Position numbers and translations under genes: made by a program
Shown here: positions 22,784 to 28,585 of the stretch, piece after piece
How positions within the stretch are numbered: position 1 is the first letter of the stretch
How the letters are laid out: every line of letters begins with the position of its first letter
The notes under the pieces: generated by a model
The model's database searches: none
What the model saw: only the letters and a program-made list of their open reading frames with translations
Told to the model about the DNA's origin: nothing
NCBI RefSeq assembly: GCF_000257645.1
Contig: NZ_AJHJ01000013.1
Coordinates: 1-64,000, forward strand
DNA: 64,000 nt
Source: Serratia sp. M24T3
GTDB taxonomy: Bacteria > Pseudomonadota > Gammaproteobacteria > Enterobacterales > Enterobacteriaceae
Direction: 5' to 3'

Positions 22784-23470
22784 ATGTCGATCCCTCTGCC
22801 CGCTCTTAAGCCACCTCAAGATGAACATGCCCTGTTTCACCGTGCTCAGTCTTTGGCAGGTTATAGCTTAGGGGAGCTTGCCGAGCGGGCTAATATGGCG
22901 ATCCCTCCTGACCTGAAAAGGGAAAAAGGTTGGGTCGGCATGTTGCTTGAAGTTTATCTAGGCGCTAGTGCAGGCAGCAAGCCAGAGCAAGATTTTCCGG
23001 AGATAGGCATTGAACTCAAAACTATTCCGATAGATGCCTCAGGCAACCCTTTAGAGACAACCTTTGTCTGCGTGGCGCCGTTAACTGGCAATAGCGGTGT
23101 GACCTGGGAAAGCAGTCACGTCAGACACAAGCTGGCACGCGTACTGTGGATACCTGTGGAAGGCGAGCGACAAATCCCGTTGGCGGTGCGCAGAATCGGC
23201 AGCCCGCTGCTTTGGAGTCCATCAGTAGAAGAGGACGAGCAGCTACGGCAGGATTGGGAAGAATTAATGGATCTTATCGTTTTGGGAAAAGTTGAGAGTA
23301 TTACAGCTCGTCACGGCGAGTTCCTGCAACTACGCCCTAAAGCAGCCAATAATAAGGCCAGAACCGAGGCTATCGGGGAAATGGGCCAGCCAATCATGAC
23401 CTTGCCGCGTGGCTTTTATTTAAAGAAGCGTTTTACTCGTGAATTGCTGGCTCGTCATTTTTGGTTATAA
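22784..23470 (+). CDS. mutH: DNA mismatch repair endonuclease MutH
   Basis: Nicks the unmethylated strand at hemimethylated GATC sites when called by MutS and MutL, so that the new strand is repaired. It has 228 residues (229 in E. coli). The catalytic triad D70, E77 and K79 (in [11 protein letters not shown]) is intact and numbered as in E. coli. Its presence implies Dam-directed repair. The upstream gap with DnaA boxes holds its promoter. Confidence 0.98.
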
Positions 23471-23581
23471 ACCTTTTTATTACCAAATAACACGCCACAG
23501 CCAAGCTCGGCGCTGCATTATGCTCTTTTTTTGCTAATCTTAAATGAGTGGTCTGTGATGACCAATTCCAGGGGATACATA

Positions 23582-23800
23582 ATGAAAAATGCAGTGAAGA
23601 TCGTCAGTACGATAGCTTTGGCATTTATCCTCGCAGGTTGCTCGAGCGACTATGTGATGGCAACTAAAGATGGCGATATGATTTTAACCAACGGCAAGCC
23701 AGAGCTTGATAAAAGTACCGGCTTACTGAGCTATGAAGACCAACAAGGCAATCATCGCCAAATCAATAACGATCAAGTTACCGAAATTATGGAACGCTGA
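23582..23800 (+). CDS. ygdR: YgdR-type small lipoprotein (DUF903)
   Basis: A 72-residue lipoprotein, the same length as E. coli YgdR. A signal peptide ends in the lipobox LAGC (cysteine 20), followed by [11 protein letters not shown], a YgdI/YgdR hallmark, and a small SH3-like beta domain. ATG at 23582 was chosen because it places the lipobox correctly and has GGGAT upstream; longer starts add an unlikely leader. Function is unknown. A weak hairpin at 23854-23883 follows. Confidence 0.93.
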
Positions 23801-23887
23801 TTTGGCGAGTGCCTTACCCATTGAATTCAGCAGCTTTAACATCCGTTAAATTTAAGCACCGGCGTGAAGTTATGCCGGCACTTGTGT

Positions 23888-25051
23888 TTACAATGGATGT
23901 GTTCTGCGAATGGCGGGCACTGTAGCGACAGCAAGTTCAAGGCTGGCTATCACCGCCACAAGGCTTATAAAACACACTTTTCCAGCTTCTACCAATACCC
24001 AGCCTCCAAATACCGGAAAACCGAAGATTCCAACAAAATAAGAAATAACAAACCAGGTCAGTGCTGCATGCCTATTTTCTAAATCAGATTCATTGATAGC
24101 CCAGGTTTGGATGACTGGATAAACCAGTCCGTATCCCAAACCGGTCAACACGGCAGACATTATCTGGAACGACGGATGAATATTGAGCCCCAGCATGCAC
24201 AGAACGCCGAGTATTAAACACAGCATTAATGAACTAACCAGTTTTAAACGCGGTAATACAGAAAGATAGCGAGCAAATAAGAGTCTGGAAACAACCACTG
24301 TAACAGCGTGGACGGCAAAGAAAGTGCTTGCCCGTGAACCTGTACCATCAACCAGTGAACTTTGAAAAGTCATTATCGCAGAAAATACGCAACCGCCCAG
24401 GCCCACCATAATGATGGGCCTGATTGCGCTACTTAAGCCAATTTGGGGCAATTTTTTGACCCATGATCTGGTAGCTGACTCATGGATACTCCGCCTTTCT
24501 TTAACACCAAACACGATCAATAAAAAAGATGCCAGTACACCGGCAAGCCCAACATAATTAAATGCAGAATGCAGACTCACTTCTGACTGTTCAACGATTG
24601 CGGTAAGTAATATCGGGCCGCCACAAATGCCTGCCATTTGGAAGGCACTAAAACGAGTAAACCAACTGCCTCGATTTAAATCATTGATACGTTCTGATAA
24701 TGCCATTGGCCCGCTGATATAAAACATTCCCCATCCCAGGCCAATAAGCAACGCGGCAAAATTGATTATGTGTCCGGAATTATCACTCGACGAGCCAAGC
24801 ATCAGAAACCCTGCCGCTAAGGTCAAAGCGGCTATTGCAGCAAGCCACGCGGCTTCAACCAATCCGGCAAACCACCCGACTAAAGGTACCCCTATCAATG
24901 TGCCTATCAATGCAAAACTCATCGCTATGCCGGTGTCTATGTCACTCCCTCCCTGCATACTAAAGTAGCTTGATATCAGAAAGGTAGCGCCATAACCCGC
25001 GGCCATGAATAAGGTTCCAAATAATAAAAACAGCGCTGAGGTCGTTCGCAT
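23888..25051 (-). CDS. MFS transporter of the desulfurase cassette
   Basis: Inner-membrane carrier of the major facilitator superfamily, 387 residues with about 12 predicted hydrophobic helices and the usual central cytoplasmic loop (near KERRSIHESATRSWVKK). The substrate cannot be read from the sequence; a drug or metabolite exporter is plausible. ATG at 25051 was chosen because it has GGAG 7 bases upstream, whereas the ATG at 25063 has no ribosome site. It starts 20 bases after the cysteine desulfurase stop and is the last gene of a three-gene cassette absent from this position in E. coli, possibly exporting its product. Confidence 0.85.
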   Translation of the reverse strand: MRTTSALFLLFGTLFMAAGYGATFLISSYFSMQGGSDIDTGIAMSFALIGTLIGVPLVGWFAGLVEAAWLAAIAALTLAAGFLMLGSSSDNSGHIINFAALLIGLGWGMFYISGPMALSERINDLNRGSWFTRFSAFQMAGICGGPILLTAIVEQSEVSLHSAFNYVGLAGVLASFLLIVFGVKERRSIHESATRSWVKKLPQIGLSSAIRPIIMVGLGGCVFSAIMTFQSSLVDGTGSRASTFFAVHAVTVVVSRLLFARYLSVLPRLKLVSSLMLCLILGVLCMLGLNIHPSFQIMSAVLTGLGYGLVYPVIQTWAINESDLENRHAALTWFVISYFVGIFGFPVFGGWVLVEAGKVCFISLVAVIASLELAVATVPAIRRTHPL

Positions 25052-25071
25052 TTTAAACTCCATTTAAATAA

Positions 25072-26253
25072 TTATTTAGTGATGAAGGGCGTGGGCACCA
25101 TCTTGCGAAGTTTTTTTAGAACCTCATTAATTCTCAGGCAAACGTATTTTACTTCTTCTTCGTTATTAAACCTTCCGAACCCCAAACGCACACTTGACCG
25201 TGAGTTGGCATCGCTTAGGCCGATCGCCTTAAGAACATGGGAAGGTTGTCTCCCAGCCGAATTACATGCTGATCCCGCCGATAAAGCTATTTCAGGGATC
25301 TCTAATAATAAAGAGTCGGCATCAATACCCAAAAAAGAAATATTTAATAGACCAGGCAGGCATTCCAGATGATGACCATTGATGCAAAACCCATCGTGAT
25401 CAACATTAATGTTTTCAAGAAAAATACTTTTTAATCCTTTTAATCTAATCGACTCTTGTTGAAGAGTTTCCATTGCGATTCTTACTGCATGCCCAAAACC
25501 GACAATTCCAGGAACATTCAAAGTCCCAGAACGCAAGCCATTTTCTTGCCCTCCGCCTACGATCAAAGGTTCCAATATTATTTTTTTTAATGAATTATTT
25601 ATATACAGCGCTCCAGAACCCTTGGGGCCGTAAATCTTGTGCGAGCAAAACGAAGCCATATCAATATTCATTGCCTGAACGTCAAAGTATATTTTACCTA
25701 CCGCTTGCGTGGCATCCGTGTGAAATACGACATTTTTATCGAGACAAATTTTCCCTATTTCTTCAATTTTTTGAATGGAACCTATTTCATTGTTAGCAGC
25801 CATTATCGACACAAGGTAGGTATCATCTCTTACTGCATCGTAGACTGCCGAAGGTGATACTACTCCATCCCTTTGTGGAGCTAAGTAAGTGACTTCAATA
25901 CCTTGGCTTTCAAGTCTTGCACAACTTTCCAGCACCGATTTATGTTCAATTGCCGAGGTAATAATATGACGGCCAGAAGCTTTTTTTTGCATACCACAAA
26001 TTGCCAGATTTACTGATTCAGTAGCCCCTGAGGTGAACACAATTTGATGTGAATGATGAGCATTTATCGCTTTAGAAATCTCGGCCCGTGCCTGTTCGAC
26101 AGCACTGGAAGCATCCCATCCCAAGGAATGGCTTTCACTTGAAGGATTTCCATAATTGATTGTTAAATAGGGAATCATGGCATCAAGCACTTGCGGATCT
26201 ATCCTGGTAGTTGCAATATTGTCTAAATATATAGGTCCCTTGCAGCTGCTCAA
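25072..26253 (-). CDS. Cysteine desulfurase, NifS/IscS type
   Basis: PLP enzyme that takes sulfur from cysteine as an enzyme-bound persulfide and releases alanine. It has 393 residues. The PLP lysine is K206 in CSHKIYGPKG, the cofactor-stacking histidine is H104 in EHKSVL, and the catalytic cysteine is C330 in SAGSACNSAG, close to the IscS loop. It is divergent in sequence and lies apart from any isc or suf genes, suggesting a special sulfur donor rather than housekeeping Fe-S assembly. It probably begins with TTG at 26253, backed by AAAGGA. It lies 29 bases after an unrecognised gene and 20 bases before a transporter, on the same strand. Confidence 0.92.
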   Translation of the reverse strand: MSSCKGPIYLDNIATTRIDPQVLDAMIPYLTINYGNPSSESHSLGWDASSAVEQARAEISKAINAHHSHQIVFTSGATESVNLAICGMQKKASGRHIITSAIEHKSVLESCARLESQGIEVTYLAPQRDGVVSPSAVYDAVRDDTYLVSIMAANNEIGSIQKIEEIGKICLDKNVVFHTDATQAVGKIYFDVQAMNIDMASFCSHKIYGPKGSGALYINNSLKKIILEPLIVGGGQENGLRSGTLNVPGIVGFGHAVRIAMETLQQESIRLKGLKSIFLENINVDHDGFCINGHHLECLPGLLNISFLGIDADSLLLEIPEIALSAGSACNSAGRQPSHVLKAIGLSDANSRSSVRLGFGRFNNEEEVKYVCLRINEVLKKLRKMVPTPFITK

Positions 26254-26282
26254 TTTCTTTTTCCTTTATAAGATTTCTTATT

Positions 26283-27008
26283 TTAAGAACTGATGAATTT
26301 TGGAGGAAAGATGATCTCTCCTCGACTAATCTCACCGGCTTCGCTGACAAGATTTAACCTAATTGCAGTATTGAGACCTAGCAAATGACTTAACTGTATG
26401 CCGCGTGCAAATATCAAGCTTTTTGACCAGGGGCTTTCTTCAAAGAACACGTCTAAAAATGCATGAGCATCCTTCTTTCCTCCTGCAGCTCTATCAAAAT
26501 ATTCTTTTGTTATAGCTCCGCAAGTCAATTTCAGGCTTTGTGCCTGAGCAACAATTGAATCATCTTTTATAATTTCATTAACATGGACTTTAGTTACAAG
26601 CCTTTGATAAATATCTTGCGAAATATCTTTAGTAGAAATTATATGCATTAAATGCTGCCTGGCAGAATCCTCATGAATGGCGATTATTTTATCCAGCGGT
26701 ATTTGGTACTTTTCTGAAACAGGTTCGTATATCTTTCTTATGGTTGGATGTAAATTATTTATTCGAGGATGCCGTTTTTGAGAATTAGTCAGTCCTTCAG
26801 TTAAAAACTGAAGGCGAAAAATACCTATATGATCGAAAGCTACTGATATTTTTGGAAGATACCCCTGCTCCTCTCTAATCTTATAAGCGAATTTGAGGGC
26901 AGCCTCAAAAGCTGCCACTTGGCATTCAATATCAATGTTATTATTATCATTTATACTGACTCTTGAATTGCCAGCAAGAATACTAATCTTTTTGACAGGC
27001 TTGAACAT
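26283..27008 (-). CDS. Unrecognised 241-residue protein, first gene of the desulfurase cassette
   Basis: I do not recognise this protein. It is soluble-looking, with no signal peptide or membrane segment, and mixed alpha/beta in character, with two cysteines (residues near 29 and 169) and several histidines in the middle (around RHPRINNLHP and IHEDSARQHLMHI). It has no P-loop or PP-loop motif that I can see. A strong ribosome site (GGGGGAGGTG) precedes the ATG. It is AT-rich compared with the core genes. Its place before a cysteine desulfurase and an MFS carrier suggests it accepts or uses sulfur, for example in a small-molecule pathway, but this is only inferred from context. Confidence 0.8.
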   Translation of the reverse strand: MFKPVKKISILAGNSRVSINDNNNIDIECQVAAFEAALKFAYKIREEQGYLPKISVAFDHIGIFRLQFLTEGLTNSQKRHPRINNLHPTIRKIYEPVSEKYQIPLDKIIAIHEDSARQHLMHIISTKDISQDIYQRLVTKVHVNEIIKDDSIVAQAQSLKLTCGAITKEYFDRAAGGKKDAHAFLDVFFEESPWSKSLIFARGIQLSHLLGLNTAIRLNLVSEAGEISRGEIIFPPKFISS

Positions 27009-27544
27009 GAATGAGCACCTCCCCCTTCCTTGAGGATAAATGGCTTAAGCTTTATAATAACTTTTAGTAAAAACAACTATCGCACTGGTTAGCGAGAACG
27101 ATGAGAATAGTAATTTATTAAGCAAAAAAACAGCGCGAACTTGATATTTCACCACTATTTTACAAAATAGAGATCCACTTCAAATTACTACTGCAAAACA
27201 AACTCTCATGATTTTAATAATTAAAACAAATATTAATATGTATTTAATAAATCAATTTATTTTAAATAAAATATAACTTACTAATGAATAAACTCTGATA
27301 AAATTCGCTTTTAAAAACGAAAAGTATTTACTCCGGCCCACACATACCTCAAGGTAGCAAAACTGGCGCTTTACTCCTTTGCTCTTCCCCCTCCGGCATC
27401 CCTTGTATATAGTCAATAATGCGTGGCTGCTTAGATACGCGCTTGTTTGGCTATAAGAGGGCGATGCCTGCTCATGCAGCACGGTTCAACGACCACACAT
27501 TCAAGCGCCAGCCAGACATTCTCAGACACTAAGGAAGACAGGCA
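27009..27544. other. AT-rich gap between the desulfurase cassette and tas
   Basis: About 536 bases, strongly AT-rich at 27180-27310. No gene was found that has a ribosome site and convincing codon use. It must hold divergent promoters for the cassette and for tas (ribosome site AGGAAGACAGG just before 27545). Confidence 0.5.
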
Positions 27545-28585
27545 ATGCAATATCACCGTATACCCCACAGTTCTTTAGAAGTGAGCGTACTGGGATTAGG
27601 CACCATGACCTATGGTGAACAAAACAGTGAAGCAGAAGCTCACCAGCAACTTGATTACGCCGTTGCGGCAGGGATCAACCTGATTGATACTGCAGAAATG
27701 TATCCTGTCCCTCCGCGTCCGGAAACACAGGGTTTGACTGAAAGCTACATCGGCAGTTGGATTAAGGCGCGCGGTAATCGTGAAAAAATTATTCTTGCCA
27801 GTAAAGTAGCAGGACCTTCACGAGGCAATGATGCGTCGATTCGCCCAGGGCAGGTGCTGGACCGCAAAAACATTCGTGCGGCGCTGGATGCCAGCCTGAA
27901 ACGTCTTAATACCGACTACCTTGACCTGTACCAGTTACACTGGCCGCAGCGCCCGACCAATTTCTTCGGCAAGCTTGGCTACACCTACAGCGAAGACAAC
28001 TCGGCGGTAACCCTGCTAGAAACTCTCGAGGCACTGAACGAGCAGGTGCGTGCCGGTAAAATCCGCTATATCGGTGTGTCAAACGAGACGCCCTGGGGTG
28101 TGATGCGTTATCTGCAACTGGCAGAAAAACATGATTTACCACGCATTGTCTCCATCCAAAACCCTTACAGCTTGCTGAACCGCAGCTTTGAGATTGGTTT
28201 GGCGGAAATTAGCCAGCACGAAGGGGTCGAACTGTTGGCTTACTCAAGCCTGGCATTTGGTACGCTGAGCGGCAAATATCTGAATGGCGCAAAACCGGCA
28301 GGCGCGCGTAATACGCTGTTTAGCCGCTTTACCCGTTATTCTTCAGCCCAGTCGGAAGCAGCGATTGCCGAATACGTCGGATTGGCGAAAAAGCTGAATC
28401 TGGATCCTTCGCAAATGGCGCTGGCATTTGTTCGCCAACAGCCATTTGTTGCCAGCACTCTGCTGGGTGCAACCACGCTGGAACAGCTGAAGATTAACAT
28501 CGACAGCCAGGACTTGACGCTGGACGAAGAAGTGATTAATTCACTGGAAGCTATCCACAAGCGCTTTACCATTCCTGCGCCATAA
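27545..28585 (+). CDS. tas: Tas, aldo/keto reductase family protein
   Basis: NADP(H)-dependent aldo/keto reductase-like protein, 346 residues as in E. coli. The catalytic tyrosine lies in TAEMYPVP (about residue 54) and a TIM-barrel pattern follows, with NPYSLLNRSFE as a conserved segment. In E. coli it was isolated as a suppressor of tyrosine auxotrophy; its natural substrate is unclear. It is followed by a terminator shared with the convergent lplT. Confidence 0.95.
   Translation: MQYHRIPHSSLEVSVLGLGTMTYGEQNSEAEAHQQLDYAVAAGINLIDTAEMYPVPPRPETQGLTESYIGSWIKARGNREKIILASKVAGPSRGNDASIRPGQVLDRKNIRAALDASLKRLNTDYLDLYQLHWPQRPTNFFGKLGYTYSEDNSAVTLLETLEALNEQVRAGKIRYIGVSNETPWGVMRYLQLAEKHDLPRIVSIQNPYSLLNRSFEIGLAEISQHEGVELLAYSSLAFGTLSGKYLNGAKPAGARNTLFSRFTRYSSAQSEAAIAEYVGLAKKLNLDPSQMALAFVRQQPFVASTLLGATTLEQLKINIDSQDLTLDEEVINSLEAIHKRFTIPAP

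Follow-up and report, generated by a model that had tools for sequence, protein, structure and literature searches.

To our knowledge, few routes are known by which sulfur is placed on small molecules, and most of them show a PP-loop, ThiF-like or radical-SAM protein. Among the described systems closest to the locus considered here, the tgs operon of Staphylococcus chromogenes confers 6-thioguanine production, and TgsA, TgsB and TgsD are predicted to be a desulfurase, a sulfur transferase and an efflux protein, respectively (PMC7994395). In the paulomycin cluster, the desulfurase encoded by pau31 is the proposed source of the isothiocyanate sulfur of the antibiotic, and pau30 encodes a ThiF-like protein (PMC4425429). 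Here, three adjacent genes of Serratia sp. M24T3 are analyzed, which lie in a 64,000-nucleotide stretch of contig NZ_AJHJ01000013.1 referred to throughout as the window and encode an orphan protein (gene 1), a cysteine desulfurase (gene 2) and a carrier of the major facilitator superfamily (MFS; gene 3). The three genes are a real, compact and horizontally mobile unit, hereafter the cassette, of which no description was recognized in searches of the open-access PMC literature.

The tgsA-F genes, together with the ycf genes of Erwinia amylovora, join a predicted desulfurase, a sulfur-transfer enzyme and an efflux protein in a small operon of patchy distribution, and the cassette resembles them in this plan. 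However, TgsB is a TtuA-like nucleotide hydrolase accompanied by NUDIX and HAD proteins, none of which was seen in the cassette, and none of the three cassette genes encodes the nucleotide-hydrolase-type sulfur transferase or NUDIX protein by which tgs/ycf operons are recognized. Moreover, the desulfurase is IscS-like in the cassette and SufS-like in tgs, whereas the carriers are of the MFS and EmrE-like types, respectively (PMC7994395). The paulomycin sulfur genes also include a desulfurase, but they comprise a ThiF/MoeZ-like protein and belong to a large cluster, neither of which was seen for the cassette (PMC4425429).

A three-gene unit at many chromosomal sites

The first-pass annotation of the window, made from its letters alone, proposed that the three genes act together, and their co-occurrence in other genomes was set beforehand as the test that could refute this proposal. 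The proposal withstood the test, as gene 1 is followed by the desulfurase and the MFS gene, in the same order and direction, in 17 of 17 full-length gene 1 loci. These are the window, its sister genome (G004), Rouxiella aceris, four Xenorhabdus, eight Photorhabdus, Winslowiella and Burkholderia; the Burkholderia contig stops inside the MFS gene, and a Photorhabdus contig that stops inside gene 1 (L032) is left out of the count. A profile built from three gene 1 sequences and searched against species genomes returned 14 loci (nine Photorhabdus, one Xenorhabdus, Burkholderia multivorans WS-FJ9, Winslowiella arboricola, R. aceris and R. silvae), and the genus of X. anantnagensis has 6 positive genomes among 30 searched, of which five had not been found before. 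Identities between pairs of loci vary together for the three proteins (correlations of 0.98, 0.94 and 0.94), but the rows are related, so these values are not independent evidence.

The cassette loci occupy about ten different chromosomal sites, namely ygdR/tas, greB/ompR, eno, pgpA, gcvT/ubiI, feoB with a biosynthetic cluster, speE, satP, an IS200-bearing site and the Burkholderia site, with flank identities confirmed at one locus per site, the Burkholderia flanks excepted. Photorhabdus copies at different sites share homology over ∼240–280 bp upstream of gene 1 in three of four pairs, and downstream homology amounts to 18 bp in one pair and is absent from three, indicating that the moving unit is essentially the three genes with their upstream region. 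Inspection of the open reading frame (ORF) tables by eye revealed neither a fourth gene nor a recombinase gene moving along with the unit; transposase genes lie close to single cassette loci.

In five Photorhabdus/Xenorhabdus pairs the ratio of nonsynonymous to synonymous substitution rates (dN/dS) is 0.075–0.095 for gene 1, 0.06–0.12 for gene 2 and 0.08–0.15 for gene 3, and purifying selection maintains all three genes in these pairs. Together, the fixed order in 17 loci, the many sites and the purifying selection identify the three genes as a real mobile unit.

The cassette also decays and may have been replaced. Between Rouxiella species the rppH, mutH, tas and lplT proteins are 88–99% identical to those of the window, whereas the cassette proteins are only 53–72% identical, and R. 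aceris gene 1 is nearer to that of P. luminescens (66%) than to that of the window (52%). The low identity beside conserved flanks and the affinity of the R. aceris copy point to repeated acquisition or replacement at the ygdR-tas site, although trees resolve this poorly and faster change of the interval is an alternative. The direct left neighbor, ygdR, is likewise less alike between Rouxiella species (68–81%). It is possible that the interval is an insertion hot spot or a place of allele replacement. Decay is seen in the Rouxiella genomes G003 and G005, where a single shared deletion starts inside gene 1 and runs into gene 2, and in Xenorhabdus G1295, whose gene 1 is reduced to approximately residues 58–184 adjoining a piece of a mutator-family transposase and the start of gene 2 is missing; the MFS frame is open in all three. 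About 39 residues of gene 1 are left in Xenorhabdus G1301. Separately, the MFS gene of P. luminescens DSM 3368 (L024:9953-11145) matches in two overlapping pieces and looks split, by a frameshift or a sequencing error.

Broader sampling gave no other convincing carrier of gene 1. Among 198 sampled genomes of the family, gene 1 was found in its own genome and in the sister; a third match, in a genome of 0.8 Mb, is weak (28% identity, 81 residues, E 8.6e-4) and was put down to chance. Samples of 394 genomes from the order, 369 from the class and 398 from the phylum contained gene 1 only in its own genome. No relatives were found in plasmids, phages or viral contigs, the last by a seed-based search, and a search of species genomes with a single gene 1 sequence found none; the species-genome scan depends on exact peptide seeds, which more distant relatives could escape.

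At the locus itself, the ORF calls agree with the first-pass description of three same-strand genes inserted between two genes that we take to be ygdR (a DUF903 protein) and tas (an aldo/keto reductase). The genome is a Rouxiella, and in a relative from this genus (G002) the site is free of the cassette, with a ygdR-tas distance of 379 bp compared with 3,744 in the window. Genes 1 and 2 are separated by 29 bases and genes 2 and 3 by 8 bases to the first ATG or by 20, the spacing given in the first-pass annotation, to the ATG at 25051 (MRTTSA...), which matches the position where homologous MFS proteins start. The base composition of the cassette is foreign to the window (41.4% G+C against 50.5%), and gene 1 alone has 36.5%. 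Promoter-like sites are at the level of shuffled sequence (10 against 10.5) and terminator-like sites number 7 against a shuffle mean of 3.8 (standard deviation 2.2). An Rfam scan of 23400-27700 gave no match, tandem repeats are absent within 23000-28000, and 23780-27560 contains only short direct and inverted repeats of 14–24 nt, none of them at both ends of the unit.

Table 1. Cassette genes and adjacent features in the window.
Feature	Position	Strand	Basis and remarks
Gene 1, orphan protein, 241 aa, ATG start	26283..27008	-	ORF call
Gene 2, cysteine desulfurase, 393 aa, TTG start	25072..26253	-	ORF call, PF00266
Gene 3, MFS carrier, 391 aa, ATG start	23888..25063	-	PF07690; start shared with homologues at 25051
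A+T-rich upstream region, absent from the empty site of G002	27009..27340		Boundary by eye, approximate
Left flank, outside the cassette: ygdR-like DUF903 protein	23582..23800	+	Family scan
Right flank, outside the cassette: tas-like aldo/keto reductase	27545..28585	+	Family scan

Two further observations concern Xenorhabdus. Two genomes hold a second apparent sulfur cluster (L019:2002-7732 and L052:1756-7479) composed of a LuxE-like acyl-protein synthetase, a NifU_N protein, a second cysteine desulfurase, an AMP-ligase, a carrier protein and an FAD oxidoreductase, with families assigned by scan for L019 and by eye for L052; in L019 the cassette is directly downstream of it, and the genome of L052 is G1301, which has only the gene 1 remnant. 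In X. nematophila F1, Table 1 of one study lists XCN3_2410002, a conserved unknown protein, and XCN3_2410003, a putative cysteine desulfurase, as FliZ-repressed; the labels are adjacent and near flgK/flgL, and the pair could be a candidate for the cassette (PMC3814329). No flagellar genes were seen beside the four intact Xenorhabdus loci.

The cysteine desulfurase

Gene 2 matches PF00266 at 1.1e-79, and among solved structures it is closest to cysteine desulfurases that are mitochondrial or carry the name IscS (1e-108 to 1e-107; best E 2.6e-108). The catalytic positions K206, H104 and C330 named in the first-pass annotation are confirmed and are invariant in 17 of 17 aligned desulfurases, as is D180, which presumably also has a role in the enzyme. 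On its sequence, gene 2 is classed as a group-I (IscS/NifS/DndA/SspA-like) pyridoxal phosphate-dependent cysteine desulfurase, with which it shares the fold, H104, K206 and the C330 loop. Unlike IscS, NifS and DndA, however, it scores below the NCBIfam equivalog cut-offs of these enzymes (for the IscS models NF010611 and TIGR02006, 462 of 548 and 454 of 643 bits), has a short C-terminus and is bound to the cassette. No SspA model is among the NCBIfam matches listed. In another library, matches to DndA and SspA models reach 495 and 492 bits.

The C-terminal tail of IscS functions in IscU binding. Gene 2 lacks a tail of this type, ending 5–6 residues past the LRxMxP motif in the 13 of 17 rows that are measurable, whereas the IscS chain 1p3w has 404 residues and its match to gene 2 ends at 385, leaving 19 residues further. 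The loss of the tail would fit a desulfurase that does not donate to IscU and argues against a plain Fe-S role. In the Burkholderia desulfurase (L027:8759-9859), ∼23 residues are missing before the cysteine loop, whose cysteine is C307 in place of C330, and this copy may be inactive.

The orphan protein of gene 1

Across the 17 homologues, 89 of 241 positions of gene 1 are invariant, among them a sole cysteine, C163, and the histidines H60, H87, H112, H119, H122 and H208. The first-pass annotation did not recognize this protein, and the libraries tried (Pfam, NCBIfam, PHROGs and PADLOC) agree, assigning it neither to a known regulator nor to a known enzyme. At E<=1 the window protein matches nothing in Pfam or NCBIfam, and 14 members compared with PHROGs, Pfam and NCBIfam gave nothing better than E 0.07, this being a DSBA match confined to a short stretch or to 2 of 14 members. 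A PADLOC AbiGi match at 0.016 is at chance level, with the same restriction. In a search of the Protein Data Bank (PDB) by sequence with a five-row profile, of which two rows are the remnants in G003 and G005, the best match was integration host factor at E 0.13, which was rejected.

PP-loop thiolases such as MnmA, TtcA, YcfA and TgsB, the last of which we take to belong to this class, are marked by an SGGxDS-type ATP loop. Consistent with the earlier remark that no PP-loop is visible, this motif is absent by eye from 14 gene 1 rows, and there is no PP-loop Pfam match.

The structure prediction suggested for gene 1 was carried out and gave no significant fold match. Two AlphaFold models have a predicted local distance difference test (pLDDT) score of 72 and 69, and Foldseek comparison with the PDB (both models) and BFVD (model 2) returned no match at E<=0.001; VIA-align listed cyclodipeptide synthase for model 1 but none among its 50 rows for model 2. 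Resemblances by eye were to cyclodipeptide synthases and aminoacyl-tRNA synthetases (aaRS), DsrE/TusD, PvcA and RNase H, of which the first three were at background in profile comparison. In one of these comparisons, an hhalign ranking, 142 other ORFs of retrieved loci served as decoys, and the best of 14 candidates came 33rd of 156. The effective number of sequences in the narrow homologue set is 1.7, which limits the power of searches by fold or profile, and a remote relation may have been missed.

Possible functions of the cassette

Cysteine desulfurases transfer cysteine sulfur to a loop cysteine as a persulfide. The explanation tentatively favored here, which is quite possible if somewhat short of probable, is that the three genes are a compact, horizontally moving biosynthesis-and-export cassette for a small sulfur compound. 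Gene 2 would draw sulfur from L-cysteine and carry it as the persulfide of C330; gene 1 would accept it, most likely on C163, and install it on a primary metabolite common to every host, since no other enzyme was seen travelling with the unit; and gene 3 would export the thiolated product and protect the producer. On this reading gene 1 would belong to an undescribed family of sulfur-inserting enzymes. In the first-pass proposal of a self-contained path of sulfur transfer and export, the joint travel of the three genes stands, and transfer to a small molecule and export are what we infer. Open MFS frames beside broken genes 1 and 2, in the Rouxiella deletion and in G1295, are what would be expected of a self-protection carrier. 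The further proposal that gene 1 founds a new sulfur-inserting class, outside the PP-loop, ThiF/E1-like, YcaO and radical-SAM classes, and, with persulfide sulfur received straight from its partner desulfurase, converts a primary metabolite on its own into a secreted thio-antimetabolite is doubtful.

Several observations weigh against a biosynthesis-and-export cassette. The exporter direction of gene 3 is putative: motif C is a mark of drug:H+ antiporters, and of 20 MFS rows, two of them partial, only those of the window and G004 have an antiporter-like GxxxGP. The open MFS frames come from two events and might be no more than a sign of recent decay. No relation between gene 1 and a sulfurtransferase could be demonstrated, and C163 may have a purely structural role. 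In the window and G004 the active loop of the desulfurase reads SAGSACNS, compared with SSGSACTS in the other 15 rows, and gene 1 has a dN/dS of 0.62 between these two genomes, a value from small numbers of changes (10.5 against 4.5) that may be relaxation or noise and allows no verdict; the copy in the window may thus be drifting. Finally, the unit lacks clear-cut ends at some loci, as the P. asymbiotica/P. tasmaniensis pair lacks upstream homology, P. luminescens and P. asymbiotica share an extra 130-bp homologous piece farther upstream, and Xenorhabdus G1281 and G1297 are homologous over 312 bp upstream and 57 bp downstream, with a 33-bp piece beyond.

Of the alternatives, an enzyme of class-I aaRS-like (HUP) fold that depends on tRNA or an amino acid, akin to cyclodipeptide synthases, is unlikely for gene 1; the desulfurase would then modify its product or provide sulfur for it. 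The HUP fold is marked by a five-stranded parallel Rossmannoid sheet. Cyclodipeptide synthases are derived HUP domains (PMC2922099). Gene 1 has a similar length and, in the weak models, a possible Rossmann-like topology, but shows no sequence-profile relation to them: there is no match to PF16715, the hhalign probability is <=0.7%, comparison with TyrRS is at background, and the serine of the AlbC motif GISAGNS, catalytic after strand 1, is a leucine. Two Photorhabdus genomes carry two different cyclodipeptide synthases within ∼10 kb (L040 and L041; L034 and L037), the second below the family cut-off; a gene that reads by eye like a 2-oxoglutarate-dependent dioxygenase precedes the diverged synthase.

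Also improbable is a role of gene 1 as a pure sulfur relay of the DsrE/TusD type, the cassette yielding no dedicated metabolite but persulfide, H2S or thiosulfate, which would be exported or serve in redox protection. The desulfurase partner, the single invariant cysteine and a strand-helix-strand pattern like that of TusD from the same genome (by eye) are in its favor. However, TusD (as a single sequence), TusB and TusC rank at the hhalign background (61, 77 and 139 of 156), the 89 invariant residues, many of them charged or histidine, resemble an active site more than they do a carrier, and relay proteins usually feed a downstream enzyme, none of which was seen travelling with the unit.

It is likewise unlikely that gene 1 and the desulfurase modify a macromolecule (tRNA, DNA or protein), with the MFS protein serving something else such as resistance. 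The desulfurase matches to the DndA and SspA models, which serve DNA phosphorothioation, speak for this, but no further modification gene was seen travelling along in the ORF tables, inspected by eye with the flanks not scanned for one, and all 17 loci have the carrier as their third gene. Very improbable, finally, is a diverged isonitrile synthase (DIT1/PvcA type) making an isothiocyanate or thiocyanate-like compound. In its favor, PvcA (3e59) ranks third in Foldseek with model 2, a loose motif resemblance is seen by eye and each of the 13 Photorhabdus/Xenorhabdus genomes among the 21 searched has a PF05141 gene. However, the Foldseek match has E 0.16 and a template-modeling (TM) score of 0.18, hhalign gives background values with the 12 or 13 family members compared, gene 1 does not match PF05141, and the other eight genomes (six Rouxiella, Winslowiella and Burkholderia) have no such gene. 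At L071 (G1297) there is a diverged DIT1_PvcA-type protein of 400 aa (E 2.9e-10), unlike the copies in the other 12 positive genomes.

If gene 1 does found a new sulfur-inserting class that makes a thio-antimetabolite alone, the three genes would be among the smallest sulfur biosynthetic clusters, exchanged between insect-, plant- and soil-associated bacteria. A three-gene unit without a recognizable sulfur-insertion protein is small enough to be expressed whole, and genome mining by known biosynthetic families would probably miss it.

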